A DNA stretch of 64,000 bases from Chlorobiaceae bacterium. Lineage in GTDB: Bacteria > Bacteroidota > Chlorobiia > Chlorobiales > Chlorobiaceae. The notes beneath the pieces are model-generated. The model saw only the letters and a list, made by a program, of their open reading frames with translations. It made no database searches and was not told the DNA's origin. The translations under genes and the position numbers were made by a program. Below are positions 36,181 through 43,053 of the stretch, in pieces; position 1 is the first letter of the stretch, and each line of letters starts with the position of its first letter. Location of the stretch: the NCBI GenBank assembly GCA_013334965.1, contig JAAXWO010000003.1, forward strand, positions 1 to 64,000, in the 5' to 3' direction.

Positions 36181-36358
36181 TGGTGCGCGTTTATGGTGAC
36201 GGGTCGGGGTAACACTGATACCTGCAATTATACTAAAAACCTTGATTATAACAGTCGGGCTTGTCTGAACCCCCCCCATATCTCTGCGCAGGGAACTCTG
36301 GGATTCGGCCCGGCGTTCAATGAACAAATATTTTTCACGCACAAGATCAGTAGTGCCC

Positions 36359-36982
36359 ATGGAGGTTATAGGTAAAAGCAAGGCCAAGGCGATCGTCGAG
36401 TCGCATTTGAAAGACTCGGTGATCTATTTTTCGGATCACGTAAGAATCCTCAAGCATAATCCATACTGCACCGGGGTATCCTACCTTAAGGACCATGGTG
36501 TTTATCAATGGGTTTTCCAGGTCAACGATCCTCGTGACAATCCCATCACTGCCGTTTTTTTCGTCACGCAGAACGAGGAGCATATCGATCTTTCCGGGAC
36601 TGACAGGTCAGTTGCCGACTCTTCGGATGAGCAACTTCCCGAAGGAGTCGTGACGGGCAGGTGCATCAGGTGGGTCAATTCTCCTACGGTGCCGGACGTG
36701 CCCCTTAAAGAAAAGCATACCTTCGTCGGACAGGCAAACACCCGGATCTGCCTGTATCATCTCGACGACCAGCGTACGGAGGTTCATTTCGAGACGGACA
36801 TCACGCTCGACTTTGAACTCTCGTTTCCCCTTAACCTCATGCCGGAAAATATCCTGAAATTCATGACCGAGGCGATCATGTCCAAAATCATGCAGCAGGC
36901 GACCGAAAGCATGCTGTGCCAGGTTCAGTCCGACATCTGCTGTACCGGCGCAGAGCTTACGGCATCAGGCTGCAAGGCCTGA
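36359..36982 (+). CDS. DUF1997-like protein
   Basis: The protein of about 207 residues begins at MEVIGKSKAK; an upstream ATG at 36320 is possible, and neither start has a clear Shine-Dalgarno core. The pattern VIYFSDHVRILKHNPYCTGVSYLKDHGVYQW and later DITLDFELSFPLNLMP resembles DUF1997, a SRPBCC-like family known mainly from cyanobacteria, plastids and green sulfur bacteria. That distribution hints at a link with chlorophyll or photosynthetic membranes. The C-terminal part has several cysteines (MLCQVQSDICCTGAEL). Function is unproven. Confidence 0.7.
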   Translation: MEVIGKSKAKAIVESHLKDSVIYFSDHVRILKHNPYCTGVSYLKDHGVYQWVFQVNDPRDNPITAVFFVTQNEEHIDLSGTDRSVADSSDEQLPEGVVTGRCIRWVNSPTVPDVPLKEKHTFVGQANTRICLYHLDDQRTEVHFETDITLDFELSFPLNLMPENILKFMTEAIMSKIMQQATESMLCQVQSDICCTGAELTASGCKA

Positions 36983-37060: not shown

Positions 37061-37079
37061 TATACCCGTACGGGGTATA
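37061..37079. promoter_or_regulatory. palindromic operator for the CsoR/CstR-like regulator
   Basis: TATACCCGTACGGGGTATA is a near-perfect palindrome: TATACC and GGTATA flank CGTACG, with one extra G. It lies 37 bp before the regulator gene and overlaps or abuts AT-rich promoter-like sequence (TATAGGTATATTT). GC tracts framed by AT palindromes are typical of operators of CsoR-family repressors, so autoregulation of the operon is likely. Confidence 0.65.
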
Positions 37080-37115
37080 GGTATATTTAACGGTCTCCGG
37101 TTTTGTTAAAAGGAA

Positions 37116-37376
37116 ATGCCGGAAACGACAAACAGGATGTGCCATATGGATGACGTAATCGTAAGGCTCAAAAAGGTCAATGGCCAGATACAGGGATTGA
37201 TCAGGATGATCGAAAACGAGGAGGAGTGCGAAAAGGTGGTGACCCAGTTCCAGGCGGCCAAAGCCGCCCTCGACAAGACCTTCTCCCTCGTCCTGAACAG
37301 GAACCTGAAGAACTGCCTGAACCGTCAGGATACGGAAAGCGTGGAAAGGATCTTAAAACTCATATCAATTAAATAA
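37116..37376 (+). CDS. CsoR-family repressor, CstR-like (persulfide-sensor pattern)
   Basis: An 86-residue, all-helical DUF156/CsoR protein (RLKKVNGQIQGLIRMIE, QFQAAKAALDKTF). The ligand positions are Cys38, Asn63 and Cys67. Copper-sensing CsoR has Cys-His-Cys at the same spacing (+25, +29). The per/polysulfide sensor CstR has Cys-Asn-Cys, so this protein follows the CstR pattern. In CstR the two cysteines form di- to tetrasulfide links and DNA is released. It starts an operon: tolC follows after 6 bp. The start has AAAGGA upstream. Sensing of reactive sulfur is an inference from the residues. Confidence 0.85.
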   Translation: MPETTNRMCHMDDVIVRLKKVNGQIQGLIRMIENEEECEKVVTQFQAAKAALDKTFSLVLNRNLKNCLNRQDTESVERILKLISIK

Positions 37377-37382
37377 AAGACG

Positions 37383-38702
37383 ATGAAGGTAACCAGAAGG
37401 TTTCTCGCGCTGCTTCTGTCGGCTTTTGCCGTCAGTTCCCAGGCTGAAGCGGCAACGATGAGGCTCTCGATAGAGGATGCGCTGAAGATGGCGCATGAGC
37501 GGAATACCTCGATCAAGGCTGTTCGTGCCAGAATCGACCAGGCCGACGCACGGATCGTGCAGAGCAGGCAGGCGTATCTGCCGAAAGTGAAAATCTCGGA
37601 AACCTGGCTCCATACGACAGACCCAGGGGCGAACCTTGTTTTCAAGCTGCAGCAGGGAATTGTCACTGCCCAGGATTTTGATCCCAACCGGCTCAATCAT
37701 CCGGCAGGCATCAGCGATTTCCAGACCTCTCTGGAGGTTATGCAGCCGCTTTATAATGCAGACGCGCACATAGGTCGTTCGATCGCCGTGACGGCCAGGA
37801 AAGCCCAGGTTTTCATGGCAGACCGAGCCGTCGAGAACATTGACCTGTATGTCAAAAAAGCATATTACGGCATGATTCTTGCGACGAAGAACCTCGCAGA
37901 TATCGAGCAGTCGATCGTCATCATGCAGGCATATAGCCGCGAAGCCGCCAGGGGCTACAGCGCAGGGCTCCTGACCAAATCGGACAAGTTGTCCACCGAT
38001 GTGAGGCTTGCAGAGCTCAGGGAGCAGAAACTGATGATGCAGGACGAGATCAGGAATGCCGGGGACGCCCTCAGGATGATGCTCGGCCTTAATGCCGATG
38101 ATACCCTGGTGCCTTCCGGAGACCTTGCTCCTGACCCGAAACTTCCAGCCGGGGCTGCAGGCGCTAGCCATGCAGGTCGTAGCGACCTCAAGGCTCTCGA
38201 TGCCTTCAGGGAGGTGACCGGATTCCAGTACGATATGGCCCGCGCGCAGTACATGCCGAGGGTGAACGCATTTGCCCAGCAGAACTGGCACGATTCCAGC
38301 CTTGTAGGCCTGGGTGGATCCGGGTTTACCATCGGGGTTAACGTGCAATGGAATATTTACGACGGAATGGCGACCAAGGGCAAGGTGCAGGAGGCCAAAG
38401 CCCAGGAACTGGAGGCCAGATATAATTACGAAGCGGCAAAGGAGCAGGGCGAGCTGGAGGTCAACAAGGCACGCCGGGCACTGGCAAGCTCAGTGGAGCG
38501 GATCGCCGTTTCGAAAAAATCGCTCGAAGAGGCCAGGGTAAGTTTCGACTTTATCGGCCAGCAGTACAAAACAGGCATGGCCATGACCTTCGAGTTGCTG
38601 ATGAGGGAAGGCGCCTATACCTGGGCCAAGCTTCGCTTCAACCAGGCGAGGTATGATTACTCCGTTGCAAAAAGCGAGCTGGATTTCTACAGCGGACATT
38701 GA
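37383..38702 (+). CDS. TolC-family outer-membrane efflux protein
   Basis: The 439-residue precursor has a signal peptide (cleavage near SQAEAA, residue ~24) and two long coiled-coil repeats typical of the TolC/OEP fold, starting with LSIEDALKMAHERNTSIKAVRARIDQADARI. It would form the outer-membrane channel of the RND pump encoded 151 bp downstream. It lies 6 bp after the regulator gene, so the two are cotranscribed. The exported substrate is unknown. Confidence 0.9.
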   Translation: MKVTRRFLALLLSAFAVSSQAEAATMRLSIEDALKMAHERNTSIKAVRARIDQADARIVQSRQAYLPKVKISETWLHTTDPGANLVFKLQQGIVTAQDFDPNRLNHPAGISDFQTSLEVMQPLYNADAHIGRSIAVTARKAQVFMADRAVENIDLYVKKAYYGMILATKNLADIEQSIVIMQAYSREAARGYSAGLLTKSDKLSTDVRLAELREQKLMMQDEIRNAGDALRMMLGLNADDTLVPSGDLAPDPKLPAGAAGASHAGRSDLKALDAFREVTGFQYDMARAQYMPRVNAFAQQNWHDSSLVGLGGSGFTIGVNVQWNIYDGMATKGKVQEAKAQELEARYNYEAAKEQGELEVNKARRALASSVERIAVSKKSLEEARVSFDFIGQQYKTGMAMTFELLMREGAYTWAKLRFNQARYDYSVAKSELDFYSGH

Positions 38703-38853
38703 TTCCGCAGCGGGTGCAGGCATGGAGTGAAGGAGCGTCATGCCTGCACTTCCGGGGCGTCGGGGCGGTCGTATTGGCGACCTTGAGCCCCTGAGTTCAT
38801 GATAACAAGGATTTCAACAGTCAGGAAAGAGAGAGCTAAGGAGGCTCGTGACC

Positions 38854-41800
38854 ATGCATGAAGGTATTGCCGGAAGGCTTGCAAAACAGTTCATCAATTC
38901 GAAGATAACGCCTCTTCTCATGCTGGCGTCCCTTCTGGTCGGCATCATGGCGACGTTCATGACCCCGAGGGAGGAGGAGCCGCAGATCGTCGTACCGATG
39001 GTCGATATCTACATCCCGTATCCGGGAGCGAGCGCCGCTGAGGTGGAGGAGCGTGTGGCCAAACCGGTCGAACGCACATTGACAGAAATCAAGGGGGTCA
39101 ACTACGTCTATTCGACCTCCATGCCCGATTTCGCCCTCGTCACCGTCAGGTATAATGTCGGCGACAACACCGAGGAGAGTATGGTCAAGCTCTGGTCGAC
39201 CCTTATGAAAAACATGGACAAGATGCCTCCGGGCGCGCAGATGCCCATGATGAAGAAGGTATCCATCGACGACGTGCCGGTGCTCAACCTCACGTTCTGG
39301 AGCAAGGACAAGAGTCCGTACGAGTTGAGGCGGATCGCCCTGAACGCGGCCGATCAGATAAAACAGACCGAGAACATCGGTGATGTCGAGGTCAAGGGCG
39401 GCCAGAAGCGCCAGCTCAGGGTTATGCTGCAGAAGGAAAAGCTGCAGCAGTTCAACATCACTCCGTTGCAGATCGCAAGGCAGATCCAGAGTTCGAACAC
39501 CCAGATGACGGCGGGAGATTTAAAACAGTCCAACCAGGATATCGTCGTCAAGTCAGGTCGATTCCTTGAAAGCAAGGAGGATGTCGGAAGCATCGTTGTC
39601 GGCATCTACGGCGCATCGCCGGTCTATCTTCGGGATGTGGCTCAGATCACGGACGGCCCGGAGGAGGTCAACAATTACAGCTACTTTGGCTGGGGTGCAG
39701 CTTCAGGCTCGAAAGATTCTGCCGATTACCCCGCAGTGACCCTCACGGTCGCCAAGAGGCAGGGGACCGATGCGACCAAACTTGCAGGAAAGGTGGTTGC
39801 CAAAATCGACGGCATGAAAGGTTCGGTCATTCCTTCCGGCGTGACGGTGACCGAAACGAGGAACTATGGTGAAACGGCTTCCGAAAAGGTGTTCACTCTC
39901 CTTGAACATCTCATCATGGCTGTGGTGGCCGTGACCATCGTGGTTGGATTCTTCCTCGGCTGGAGAGGCGCCCTCGTGGTGTTCGCTTCGGTGCCGATCA
40001 CCTTTGCGCTTACCCTGCTCATATATTTCCTGTTCCACTACACGCTCAACAGGGTTACGCTTTTCGCACTCATTTTCGTGACCGGTATCGTGGTCGACGA
40101 CTCGATCATCATCGCCGAGAACATCCACCGACACTTCGCCATGAAGCGGCAGCCGCGCCTTCAGGCGGCCATCACCGCCATCAGTGAAGTCGGCAATCCG
40201 ACCATCCTGGCGACGTTCACGGTCATTGCGGCGGTGTTGCCGATGGTGTTCGTCTCCGGCCTGATGGGCCCTTACATGAGCCCGATGCCGATCGGCGCGT
40301 CTCTGGCCATGATCTTTTCGCTGCTGGTCGCATTGATCGCTACCCCTTGGCTTTCGTATCGACTGTTGAAGGTCGACGAAGGGCATCACGAAGAGTATGA
40401 CATCAAGAAGACCTTCTATTACAAACTCTTTGACAAAACGCTTTCCCCGTTCATCGACAGCACCTTCAAGACATGGCTGGCGTTTGGCGTCGTTGCGGTC
40501 ATGCTTGTCGGCGCGATGGCGATGATTCCGCTCAAGATGGTGGAGATGAAGATGCTGCCGTTCGACAACAAGAACGAGTTCCAGGTGGTCGTCGACATGC
40601 CGGAGGGCACCGGCCTCGAGAAGACGGAGACGGTGACCAGGGAGATTTCGACCTACCTGAAGAGCGTCCCGGAGGTCGAGAGCAGCCAGTACTATGTCGG
40701 CATCAACGCTCCGATCAATTTCAACGGCCTTGTCCGCCACTACTATCTCAGGCGTGGCGACAACAAGGCTGATATCCAGGTGAACCTCGTGCACAAGGGC
40801 AAGAGGAGCGCACAGAGCCACGACATCGCCAAACGCGTTCGTGCAGGCGTGCAGGAGATCGCCCTGAAGTATGGCGCAAACGCCAAGATCGTCGAGATTC
40901 CCCCAGGCCCTCCGGTGCTGTCGACCATCGTTGCTGAGATTTACGGGCCTGACCAGGCGTCTCAGATCGCACTGGCAAAAGAGGTGAAAAAAGTCTTTGC
41001 GTCGACACCCGGCGTCGTCGACGTCGACTGGATGGTCGAGGCCGACCAGAAGGTTTACGACCTTGTCGTCAACAAGGATCGAGCCGCATTCCGCGGTGTG
41101 ACCGCCGAACAGATAGCCCAGACCCTTCGCATGTCGCTCAACGGCGTCGATGTTGGTCTCGTGCATCTTCAGGGCGAGGTTGAGCCGGTCACCATCCAGC
41201 TCAGGCTGCCGAAGGCTGACAGAACCTCGATCAAGGATCTTTCGGGCATTTTCGTACAGTCGCAGGGCATGGGGACGCTGACCTCAAGGCTTCGCGCCGG
41301 CCAGATGATTCCGCTTTCGGAGCTGGTGACGGTGAAGGAATCGGTCCAGGACAAGAGCATTTTCCGCAAGGATCTCCACAAGGTCGTCTATGTTACGGCA
41401 GACGTGGCAGGAGTGACCGAAAGCCCGGTGTACGCCATGCTTGAACTCGACAGGAAGATCGCGCAGATCAGGATTCCCGGCAGCGCGTCGATCAATCCCC
41501 TCTACACTTCGGTGCCGAAATCAGACGACAAGCTTGCCCTGAAATGGGACGGCGAGTGGCAGATCACTTTCGAGGTGTTCAGGGATCTGGGGACGGCGTT
41601 CGCAGTCGTGCTGGTCATCATTTACCTGCTGATCATCGGCTGGTTCCAGTCGTTCAAGACGCCGCTGATCATGATGATCTCGATTCCGCTCAGCCTGATC
41701 GGCATTATCCCGGGCCACTTCATTCATCATGCCTTCTTTACGGCTACGAGCATGATCGGCATGATCGCCCTTGCAGGCATCATGGTCAGGAACTCCGTGC

Positions 41801-42069
41801 TGCTGATCGATTTCATCCAGATTCGCAGGGAAGAGGGGGTTGGCCTGAAGCAGTCGGTCATCGAATCGGCTGCAGTGCGTACCCGCCCGATCATCCTGAC
41901 CTCCGGCGCCGTGGTCATCGGTTCCATTGTCATGCTGTTCGACCCGATTTTCCAGGGACTGGCCATCTCGCTTATCTGGGGATCGGTGCTTTCGACGATA
42001 CTGACGCTGGTGGTCGTGCCGCTGGTTTACTATCTTAGTGAGAAGAAAAACGAAAACAGGAAGGGTTAA
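38854..42069 (+). CDS. RND efflux transporter permease
   Basis: An inner-membrane pump of about 1,071 residues with the RND layout of twelve helices and two large periplasmic loops. The proton-relay pair Asp415-Asp416 lies in GIVVDDSIIIAEN (helix 4), typical of the HAE-type, not the metal-type CzcA family. The start is the ATG at 38854, 9 nt after a perfect AAGGAGG; a GTG at 38848 is too close. No membrane-fusion (adaptor) protein gene lies between tolC and this gene or after it. Substrate unknown; context suggests a sulfur-stress product or thiol compound. Confidence 0.92.
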   Translation: MHEGIAGRLAKQFINSKITPLLMLASLLVGIMATFMTPREEEPQIVVPMVDIYIPYPGASAAEVEERVAKPVERTLTEIKGVNYVYSTSMPDFALVTVRYNVGDNTEESMVKLWSTLMKNMDKMPPGAQMPMMKKVSIDDVPVLNLTFWSKDKSPYELRRIALNAADQIKQTENIGDVEVKGGQKRQLRVMLQKEKLQQFNITPLQIARQIQSSNTQMTAGDLKQSNQDIVVKSGRFLESKEDVGSIVVGIYGASPVYLRDVAQITDGPEEVNNYSYFGWGAASGSKDSADYPAVTLTVAKRQGTDATKLAGKVVAKIDGMKGSVIPSGVTVTETRNYGETASEKVFTLLEHLIMAVVAVTIVVGFFLGWRGALVVFASVPITFALTLLIYFLFHYTLNRVTLFALIFVTGIVVDDSIIIAENIHRHFAMKRQPRLQAAITAISEVGNPTILATFTVIAAVLPMVFVSGLMGPYMSPMPIGASLAMIFSLLVALIATPWLSYRLLKVDEGHHEEYDIKKTFYYKLFDKTLSPFIDSTFKTWLAFGVVAVMLVGAMAMIPLKMVEMKMLPFDNKNEFQVVVDMPEGTGLEKTETVTREISTYLKSVPEVESSQYYVGINAPINFNGLVRHYYLRRGDNKADIQVNLVHKGKRSAQSHDIAKRVRAGVQEIALKYGANAKIVEIPPGPPVLSTIVAEIYGPDQASQIALAKEVKKVFASTPGVVDVDWMVEADQKVYDLVVNKDRAAFRGVTAEQIAQTLRMSLNGVDVGLVHLQGEVEPVTIQLRLPKADRTSIKDLSGIFVQSQGMGTLTSRLRAGQMIPLSELVTVKESVQDKSIFRKDLHKVVYVTADVAGVTESPVYAMLELDRKIAQIRIPGSASINPLYTSVPKSDDKLALKWDGEWQITFEVFRDLGTAFAVVLVIIYLLIIGWFQSFKTPLIMMISIPLSLIGIIPGHFIHHAFFTATSMIGMIALAGIMVRNSVLLIDFIQIRREEGVGLKQSVIESAAVRTRPIILTSGAVVIGSIVMLFDPIFQGLAISLIWGSVLSTILTLVVVPLVYYLSEKKNENRKG

Positions 42070-42087
42070 CCCCAGGGGACAAGACTG

Positions 42088-42393
42088 ATGAAATTCATCG
42101 CCATCATAGGGGACGAAGAGACCCGGCCGCAGGTGCGCAAAATGTTCATGGATCACCAGGTGAACCTCTTCAGCAACGTCGCCATCAGGGGATGCTCATG
42201 CGAAGCGGCCAAAGGGCCGCTCGCATGGTGGCCCTCGGACAGGGATATGAGCACCTATTCGTCACTCTGTTTTGCGATTCTTGACGATGACAAGGCTGAA
42301 AATATCATGAAAGAGCTGGAGCGTAGCCCCATAGCTTCCGATCCTGATTTCCCGTCGAGGGTGTTCATGATGAACGTTGAAAAAATGCTTTAA
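42088..42393 (+). CDS. uncharacterised 101-residue protein, possibly PII-like
   Basis: A small cytoplasmic protein located 18 bp after the RND gene and 12 bp before the metallohydrolase gene. The layout MKFIAIIGDEETRPQVRKMFMDHQVNLF, then a strand-rich part and FPSRVFMMNV at the end, suggests a beta-alpha-beta ferredoxin-like fold such as PII-like or DUF3240 proteins, which also follow RND genes elsewhere. A Cys-Ser-Cys motif (IRGCSCEA) could bind metal or be modified by sulfur. No family is firmly recognised. Confidence 0.7.
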   Translation: MKFIAIIGDEETRPQVRKMFMDHQVNLFSNVAIRGCSCEAAKGPLAWWPSDRDMSTYSSLCFAILDDDKAENIMKELERSPIASDPDFPSRVFMMNVEKML

Positions 42394-42405
42394 CTGCGAG
42401 CTGCC

Positions 42406-43053
42406 ATGGGTCTTCAGGTGCATCAGTTCAGGACGGGCGGGGACCGGAATTTCGGGTACCTCTGCGCCGATGATTTGACTGGCGAAGCTTTTGCCGTCGA
42501 TGTCTCATTTTCTCCGGCCGCAATCGTCGATTATGCTTCGGGGCGCGGCTGGAAGATCGTGTATGCCTTTTCGACCCATGGCCATTCGGACCACTGCAAC
42601 GGAAACGCCGAATTTGAGCGGCTGGCCGGTGTCGGCGTGCTGCTGTTCGGCGACCGCTGTCTTCGAACCGGAACCCATGTCAAGGACGGAGCGGTTTTTG
42701 CCCTGGGTACAGGACGCTTTTCCATCCTCCATACGCCGGGGCACACCCCGGATTCGATCTGCATCCTCGCCGGCGATGCCCTTTTTACCGGGGATACGCT
42801 GTTTGTGGGCAAGGTCGGCGGCACATGGAACGACGACGACGCCCGACAGGAGTATCGTTCGCTGCACGACAAGCTGATGAGCCTTCCGGAATCGATCAGG
42901 GTTTTTCCCGGCCATGACTACGGAACGGCCCCTTTTTCGACGATAGGCGATGAAAAAACCACGAATCCCTTTATTCTGCAACAGGATATCGATGCGTTCA
43001 TGCACCTGAAATGCAACTGGGCCGCCTATAAAAAAGCGCACGGAATCATCTGA
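42406..43053 (+). CDS. MBL-fold hydrolase, ETHE1/glyoxalase-II-like
   Basis: A 215-residue metallo-beta-lactamase-fold protein with the metal motif THGHSDH, the second-sphere HTPGHTPDSIC, FTGDTLFVGKVGGT (metal-bridging Asp) and FPGHDYG followed by STIGDEKTTNPF. The last segment and the compact size recall persulfide dioxygenases (ETHE1) as well as glyoxalase II. In the S. aureus cst operon an ETHE1-like enzyme is controlled by CstR, a striking parallel. Persulfide dioxygenase needs O2, so in an anaerobe it may serve during oxygen exposure or have a hydrolase role instead. Confidence 0.85.
   Translation: MGLQVHQFRTGGDRNFGYLCADDLTGEAFAVDVSFSPAAIVDYASGRGWKIVYAFSTHGHSDHCNGNAEFERLAGVGVLLFGDRCLRTGTHVKDGAVFALGTGRFSILHTPGHTPDSICILAGDALFTGDTLFVGKVGGTWNDDDARQEYRSLHDKLMSLPESIRVFPGHDYGTAPFSTIGDEKTTNPFILQQDIDAFMHLKCNWAAYKKAHGII

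Follow-up and report, generated by a model that had tools for sequence, protein, structure and literature searches.

The DNA analysed here is a 64,000-nt stretch from a Chlorobiaceae bacterium (GCA_013334965.1, contig JAAXWO010000003.1, positions 1-64,000, forward strand), referred to below as the window. It contains an operon in which a 23-bp operator precedes genes for a CsoR-family regulator, a TolC channel, an RND permease, a small PII-fold protein and an MBL-fold enzyme. The features, all on the plus strand, are as follows.

37061-37084, plus strand: predicted operator of the CsoR/CstR family, a perfect copy (TATACCCGTACGGGGTATAGGTAT), starting at the position where the sequence-only reading had begun the locus
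37116-37376, plus strand: CstR-like repressor, 86 aa (PF02583, E 2e-20; residues; best PDB match)
37383-38702, plus strand: TolC-family outer-membrane channel, 439 aa (OEP, E 6e-43)
38703-38853, plus strand: deletion site in the TolC-RND gap (gap comparison with relatives; tree)
38854-42069 (or from 38848), plus strand: RND permease, 1071-1073 aa (ACR_tran, E 7e-154)
42088-42393, plus strand: PII-fold small protein, 101 aa (AlphaFold model with pLDDT 83; Foldseek match to GlnK/PII)
42406-43053, plus strand: MBL-fold hydrolase of the glyoxalase II/ETHE1 superfamily, 215 aa (Lactamase_B, E 3e-15; PDB matches; alignment)

The coordinates of the open reading frames bear out an earlier description of five same-strand genes separated by 6, 151 (with the ATG start of the RND gene), 18 and 12 bp. 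For the permease, ATG at 38854 is a likelier start than GTG at 38848 because relatives begin MNEGIAG; the regulator perhaps starts at Met11 (37146), where its Chlorobium homologues start. A promoter scan gave no signal beyond chance. Conservation of the gene order in other Chlorobiaceae, proposed earlier as a check, was found in essentially all loci fetched, and the operon is therefore not a local rearrangement. In C. ferrooxidans (L059/L074) and Oct13_Bin_1 (L056/L071), where it is split, the regulator leads each half. The operon is real and is conserved in the Chlorobiaceae.

The regulator is the sole PF02583 protein in the genome. As the sequence-only reading had noted, it carries Cys38, Asn63 and Cys67, and these align with CstR (7mq1), that is, with two cysteines at the X and Z positions of CsoR and a residue other than His at Y. 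In the same alignment CsoR, InrS, FrmR and RcnR have His at the position of Asn63, and the Cys-His-Cys Cu(I) site of CsoR is absent from the regulator. The best PDB match is CstR of S. pneumoniae (7mq1/7mq2), and the closest plasmid relatives adjoin TusA, DsrE, rhodanese, CstB-type MBL, TauE or SQR genes. In the tree, the regulator is split from the metal and formaldehyde sensors with a support of 76/92 only. Residues, nearest solved structure and the contexts of relatives, together with the rhodanese regulon described below, support the proposed CstR-like identity.

The operator family has the consensus ATACC[CT]NTA[CG]NGGGTAT[AG]GGTAT and is kept 5' of the regulator in 57 loci. Within one mismatch it occurs in 58 of 61 Chlorobiaceae genomes, whereas a reversed control pattern gave 0 matches in the 61 genomes. 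Only two exact copies exist in the 2.48-Mb genome (matches with three mismatches were as numerous there as those of the reversed control and were set aside), the second lying elsewhere, 168 bp upstream of a rhodanese gene (PF00581), and all secondary operators in relatives (18/18) adjoin the orthologous rhodanese. The predicted regulon thus comprises the pump operon and the rhodanese, with no metal gene. Because the secondary operators stand at rhodanese genes and the regulator has CstR-type residues, this regulon points to persulfide rather than copper; sensing of copper by the regulator was rejected on its residues (Asn for the Cu-site His) and on the regulon. Judged from regulator and operators, the operon is probably switched on by reactive sulfur, and sequence alone would in this way define a reactive-sulfur regulon conserved through the Chlorobiaceae. 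Among the observations open to computation that would have spoken against the earlier reading, such as a regulator grouping with copper or nickel sensors or a gene order unique to this strain, none was found.

Related regulons are known from other bacteria. Those of CstR in Firmicutes (the cst operons of S. aureus and E. faecalis, and YrkD of B. licheniformis) share a two-Cys CsoR-family repressor, Asn where the Cu site has His, and rhodanese targets. However, the descriptions compared include no RND, TolC or PII-like protein, whereas in the Chlorobiaceae, which are phototrophic anaerobes, the repressor targets a pump operon. In Thermus thermophilus, TTHA1953 is likewise a two-Cys CsoR-family regulator of sulfur oxidation genes, but it acts on sox genes at a distance, it binds a different 20-bp palindrome, and no pump is involved (PMC10318464).

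The product of the fourth gene is a small protein with Cys-X-Cys in its predicted T-loop and an additional Cys61. As a single sequence it has no Pfam or NCBIfam match, including PF00543, and even the best outgroup homologue reaches only E 0.002 and 18.8 bits against PF00543, under the cut-off of 25. A sequence search of the PDB with the PII-like profile gave chance coiled-coil matches only, and plasmid searches with the protein found no real relative; it is the predicted structure that matches GlnK3 in Foldseek (E 2e-6, probability 1.00). Neither this fold nor the gene deletion in the TolC-RND gap had been stated in the sequence-only reading.

The permease retains the DD proton-relay motif (VVDDSIIIAEN) and is HAE-like rather than HME, scoring 423.6 and 355.6 bits with general HAE-type models against 266.8 bits with CusA/CzcA. 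Its orthologues in outgroups adjoin rhodanese, YgaP-like, CstB-like, SQR or ArsR genes in 12 of 17 loci, compared with 0/17 control RND loci, and the PII-like gene shows the same ratio (12/17 versus 0/17). Two of the outgroup loci carry ArsR and rhodanese, and on plasmids of Pseudanabaena and Sphingomonas the SQR-like, rhodanese, adaptor, RND and ArsR genes stand together. These neighbourhoods support the suggested tie of the pump to reactive-sulfur metabolism, and a widespread uncharacterised TolC-RND-PII system is thereby tied to sulfane-sulfur metabolism across distant lineages.

An operon of metal efflux, in which a CsoR-type metal sensor controls RND export of copper, another soft metal or a metal sulfide and the PII-like protein works like PII-NG in Czc operons, is unlikely on this evidence. 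CsoR-family regulators do often control metal export, the Cys-X-Cys of the PII-like protein could bind metal, RND pumps induced with H2S have been read as metal-sulfide exporters (PMC5358917), and PII-NG, also a PII-fold gene in RND operons, clusters with CzcABC (PMC7726332). PII-NG is a PF00543 member found with metal pumps, whereas the present subfamily escapes PF00543 and adjoins sulfur genes. The Asn of the regulator, the regulon, the HAE-like class of the permease and the rhodanese, SQR and CstB-like genes around its orthologues all argue against metal. It is also unlikely, if somewhat more conceivable, that reactive sulfur induces the operon merely as a stress signal, the pump being a general envelope or drug exporter with a non-sulfur substrate. 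The broad HAE-like family to which the permease belongs and the five of 17 outgroup loci with no sulfur gene nearby would suit such a role, as would the response of several drug-pump regulators (MarR, MexR) to sulfane sulfur (PMC9495516); the recurrence of sulfur-enzyme genes beside the permease in distant lineages, seen at none of the 17 control RND loci, speaks against it.

It had been stated earlier that no reactive-sulfur-controlled RND pump of this kind has been described. This is nearly right, but precedents exist. The ArsR-type proteins SqrR, BigR and sHdrR are reactive-sulfur repressors near RND genes, although they belong to an unrelated regulator family and the RND genes were listed there rather than studied (PMC12423496). 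In Azospira suillum, the operon Dsui_3440-3443, encoding SQR, an efflux pump and an RND MFP, is highly expressed and gives a fitness signal during H2S oxidation, and its deletion leaves the rate of H2S oxidation unchanged (PMC5358917). By analogy, the unchanged rate fits a stress role and shows no essential one; the Azospira operon differs in including SQR and an adaptor, and the likeness drawn here is one of operon content.

No periplasmic adaptor is encoded in the operon or in the window, and four other RND loci in the genome carry adaptors of their own. In relatives the TolC-RND gap is 435-475 bp long and codes for a lipoprotein of about 140 aa consisting of the membrane-proximal domain (MPD) only, whereas in the studied strain only about the last 30 bp of that gap, the ribosome-binding region of the RND gene, are recognisable. 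This mini-adaptor has no Pfam or NCBIfam match as a single sequence; its identity came from alignments and predicted structures (hmmsearch with AcrA, E 6e-11; Foldseek to MexA, rmsd 1.6; hhalign to the full adaptors of outgroups, 99.3%). The hhalign alignment covers just the final 74 columns of the model, the barrel, lipoyl and hairpin domains being absent. Outgroups carry a full adaptor. On these comparisons, the ancestor of the Chlorobiaceae cut the adaptor to the MPD-only lipoprotein, and the adaptor-less condition is the derived state; the tree implies at least five losses of the mini-adaptor gene, one of them in the lineage of the studied strain. The term adaptor-less, used in the sequence-only reading, is therefore true of this strain but describes the endpoint of a reduction from full adaptor through MPD-only lipoprotein to none. 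The permease and TolC nevertheless remain under purifying selection (for RND, a dN/dS of 0.065 in comparison with the closest adaptor-less relative).

The fifth gene encodes an enzyme with conserved metal-ligand motifs (THxHxDH, HTPGHT, FTGD and GHDY in the alignment), whose best PDB match is 4ysb, which we take to be the Myxococcus PDO, followed by human ETHE1. These matches and ligands would favour a true ETHE1-type persulfide dioxygenase through which the operon couples export to oxidation; the sequence-only reading had called the enzyme ETHE1-like. However, the GRTDF motif is replaced by KVGGT (once KIGGT), with Gly for Arg, in all Chlorobiaceae homologues aligned, and the top NCBIfam score, though below the cut-off, is that of glyoxalase II (TIGR03413). 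Persulfide dioxygenases require O2, and Chlorobiaceae are anaerobes. Given the missing Arg and the anaerobic hosts, the ETHE1-type assignment was not borne out and is rather improbable.

We therefore favour, at a probability of roughly 70%, a persulfide/polysulfide-stress operon in which a CstR-type repressor controls a pump exporting toxic species linked to reactive sulfur. The repressor would occupy the operator at 37061-37084 and the second operator before the rhodanese gene. By analogy with CstR biochemistry, rising low-molecular-weight persulfides or polysulfides would bridge Cys38 and Cys67 of neighbouring subunits and release the repressor from DNA. The derepressed cell would then make the rhodanese sulfurtransferase, the proton-driven RND exporter and the TolC that belongs to it, the PII-fold protein and the MBL hydrolase. 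As PII biology suggests, the PII-fold protein probably docks on the cytoplasmic face of the permease and gates the pump; the likely substrate of the hydrolase is a thiol conjugate or thioester, and the enzyme probably does not act as an O2-dependent persulfide dioxygenase. From the periplasm or inner membrane, the pump may clear a toxic species, for instance a thiol conjugate or an organic persulfide or polysulfide. Green sulfur bacteria deposit sulfur outside the cell, and an envelope exporter under reactive-sulfur control could take part in their envelope sulfur handling, although a role in detoxification is likelier.

The permease derives from a TolC-adaptor-RND-PII system of wide distribution and with ties to sulfur genes, whose adaptor shrank to the MPD in Chlorobiaceae before its loss in the studied strain. 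With the adaptor lost, the pump either borrows that of another system or reaches TolC without one. There is about an even chance that a full-length adaptor acts in trans, a reading that concerns only the RND-TolC contact and is compatible with persulfide stress. A search of the genome for a relocated adaptor gene found only an orphan, older RND-type adaptor without an RND neighbour (G000:C12:264118-265203), which is the most likely supplier ahead of the four other RND loci. All Chlorobiaceae genomes listed have conserved this orphan, as have the two f2 outgroups, the TolC tips (GL[LM]TKSDKLST and GMAMTFELLM, conserved in Chlorobiaceae) are still OMF-like, and selection maintains both RND and TolC. 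However, outgroups whose pump has its cognate full adaptor carry the orphan too, so that it did not arise as a replacement, and tip 2 of TolC is altered in Chlorobiaceae. That RND and TolC touch directly and work as an envelope-spanning exporter with no periplasmic adaptor, with the MPD-only lipoprotein as an intermediate stage and the PII-like protein gating persulfide/polysulfide export on demand, seems rather unlikely. The natural series of full, MPD-only and absent adaptors, with the pump under purifying selection, makes the assumed need for the adaptor hairpin testable. AcrAB-TolC and MexAB-OprM likewise combine RND and TolC, and the mini-adaptor of relatives matches the membrane-proximal domain of AcrA/MexA, but the Chlorobiaceae operon encodes no hairpin, lipoyl or barrel domain and that of the studied strain no adaptor. 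BesA is also a shortened RND adaptor, lacking only the hairpin (PMC4446572), whereas the Chlorobiaceae form has the MPD only.

The five ORFs, strand, gaps and regulator residues reported by the sequence-only reading for the operon at 37061-43053 (+ strand) were reproduced on re-examination of the window. The 151-bp TolC-RND gap follows from taking the ATG at 38854 as the RND start, which is the likelier choice because relatives begin MNEGIAG. Profile searches gave clear family matches for the regulator, TolC, RND and metallo-beta-lactamase-fold (MBL) genes, and the relatives of the window place it with Chlorobiaceae, near Chlorobaculum. The order regulator-tolC-rnd-pii-like-mbl is kept across Chlorobiaceae loci, with a DUF1997 gene 5' and CBS and sdhA genes 3'. 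In the window, the stretch between the DUF1997 gene and the operon contains an inverted repeat rich in GC (CCCCCGT...ACGGGGG) with T's after it; because this terminator-like repeat separates the two, the operon seems to begin at the regulator. The DUF1997 gene (36320-36982), which is kept beside the operon in most Chlorobiaceae, ends in a Cys-rich tail (SDICC...GCKA).

The 2.48-Mb genome encodes a single PF02583 protein, the regulator. Its closest solved structure is an S. pneumoniae protein (7mq1/7mq2), deposited as CsoR, which we take to be CstR. The proposed CstR-like pattern was borne out by alignment, in which Asn63 stands where CsoR, InrS, FrmR and RcnR carry His; Asn is also found at this position in 7mq1 and in Bacillales and Leuconostoc relatives. 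The regulator tree, like our other trees a single-gene tree, places sulfur-context proteins on one side and metal and formaldehyde sensors on the other with modest support (76/92), and the nearest plasmid-borne relatives adjoin TusA, DsrE, rhodanese, CstB-type MBL, TauE or SQR-like genes. On Rhodococcus and Mycobacterium plasmids (L172 and L174), a CstR-like regulator is divergent from MmpL, of the RND superfamily, with DUF302 or SQR-like genes, an actinobacterial parallel in which the same regulator family is paired with RND-superfamily exporters.

At 57 loci the regulator is preceded by a conserved 22-bp core, ATACCNNTANNGGGTATNGGTA. The genome holds two exact copies of this operator, one at the operon and the other, at G000:C16:76022, preceding by 168 bp the gene for a rhodanese (PF00581; 123 aa) that has a CRSGNRS loop. 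At one mismatch or fewer, hits to the operator occur in 58 of the 61 Chlorobiaceae genomes, against none for the reversed control pattern; the operator was defined from the family in which it was then searched, although the secondary sites do not depend on the regulator locus. Twenty secondary sites were retrieved, two of which are the main operon, and the remaining 18 all adjoin an orthologous rhodanese (tblastn E <=1e-33). Besides the rhodanese, the secondary operator at L215 faces OsmC-like and SQR-like genes, so that SQR may belong to the regulon of some species; these two genes (L215:572-2209) point away from the operator. It is because of this comparative operator and rhodanese evidence, and not the residues alone, that we read the regulator as a predicted persulfide sensor. 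We infer the inducer chemistry, as well as the pump substrate: on our preferred reading, persulfide would release the repressor from the operator, and rhodanese, pump and hydrolase would then be produced.

Each part of the operon belongs to a known type. PMC12423496 mentions RND genes close to sulfane-sulfur ArsR regulators, and an Azospira SQR/RND operon responds to H2S oxidation (PMC5358917); the combination of a CstR-type regulator, a pump-plus-rhodanese regulon, a PII-like partner and an adaptor series reduced to the membrane-proximal domain did not turn up in our searches of open-licence papers.

The pump is linked to sulfur genes outside Chlorobiaceae as well, where RND orthologues (52-68% identity) occur in 17 genomes, each flanked by a full adaptor (17/17). 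With one RND locus from each of the same 17 genomes as control, a PII-like gene lies beside the orthologue in 12/17 versus 0/17, and any of rhodanese, YgaP-like TM (DUF2892), CstB-like MBL-rhodanese, SQR or ArsR, sought with sulfur-gene probes drawn from other organisms, likewise in 12/17 versus 0/17 (one-sided Fisher p ~1e-5, hand-computed on related genomes that are not independent). Pseudanabaena and Sphingomonas plasmids carry SQR-like, rhodanese, adaptor, RND and ArsR genes all together. In the two outgroup genomes labelled f2, genes for C_GCAxxG_C_C redox proteins lie 3' of the PII-like gene (L150:3053-3844, L151:3769-4131).

Most Chlorobium loci and some of those in Chlorobaculum have a TolC-RND gap of 435-475 bp, which encodes a lipoprotein of ~140 aa whose lipobox Cys is invariant. 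Its profile (25 proteins) matches the AcrA membrane-proximal domain (E 6e-11), its predicted structure superposes on MexA/AcrA over that domain (rmsd 1.6), and in an hhalign comparison it pairs with columns 285-358 of the full adaptors from the outgroups (probability 99.3%). This mini-adaptor therefore consists of a signal peptide, an N-terminal strand region and the membrane-proximal domain, without hairpin, lipoyl and barrel domains. The RND tree places a single change from full to mini-adaptor at the root of Chlorobiaceae, and at least five losses of the mini-adaptor, one of them in the window's clade; a short remnant of the mini-adaptor C-terminal coding sequence persists in several adaptor-less loci (L061, L088 and L045). 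A comparison of the window with L032, neither of which has an adaptor here, gives dN/dS values of 0.065 (RND) and 0.096 (TolC), and the pump is therefore still under selection. The genome's four other RND loci each have their own adaptor. An orphan full-length RND-type adaptor (G000:C12:264118-265203; L251:3119-4204) has no RND neighbour and is present in all listed Chlorobiaceae and the two f2 outgroup genomes; it is old, and may serve the window's pump in trans, as a putative RND-TolC connection.

The ETHE1-like assignment of the MBL enzyme stands for the fold (4ysb is the top solved match and human ETHE1 the next) and for the metal-ligand motifs, which are retained in the alignment, but not for the activity. 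A dioxygenase is unlikely, because GRTDF is replaced by KVGGT (once KIGGT) in every aligned Chlorobiaceae homologue and the hosts are anaerobic; our guess is a thioester or thiol-conjugate hydrolase.

The fourth gene had no match in a Pfam search, and an outgroup homologue reaches PF00543 below cut-off only. The model of its product (pLDDT 83) matches GlnK/PII proteins, and a GC[NS]C motif in the predicted T-loop of the Chlorobiaceae proteins is absent from the two f2 outgroup homologues. The GlnK-AmtB precedent suggests that the protein docks on the transporter, which it might gate; a comparable arrangement is already known for PII-NG genes adjoining CzcABC (PMC7726332). Nine loci (L053, L057, L065, L081, L085, L086, L089, L090 and L094) showed no PII-like gene between rnd and mbl, and several of them are also without the mini-adaptor.

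In C. ferrooxidans the unit is split into regulator-tolC-mini-rnd-pii (L059) and regulator-mbl (L074), and Oct13_Bin_1 has the identical split into pump and hydrolase parts (L056, L071), each part being headed by its own regulator copy. Elsewhere, the regulator is duplicated in tandem at the operon head (L050, L068, L075, L076, L079 and L080), and an insertion of ~2 kb separates rnd from mbl in one locus (L093:4989-7162).
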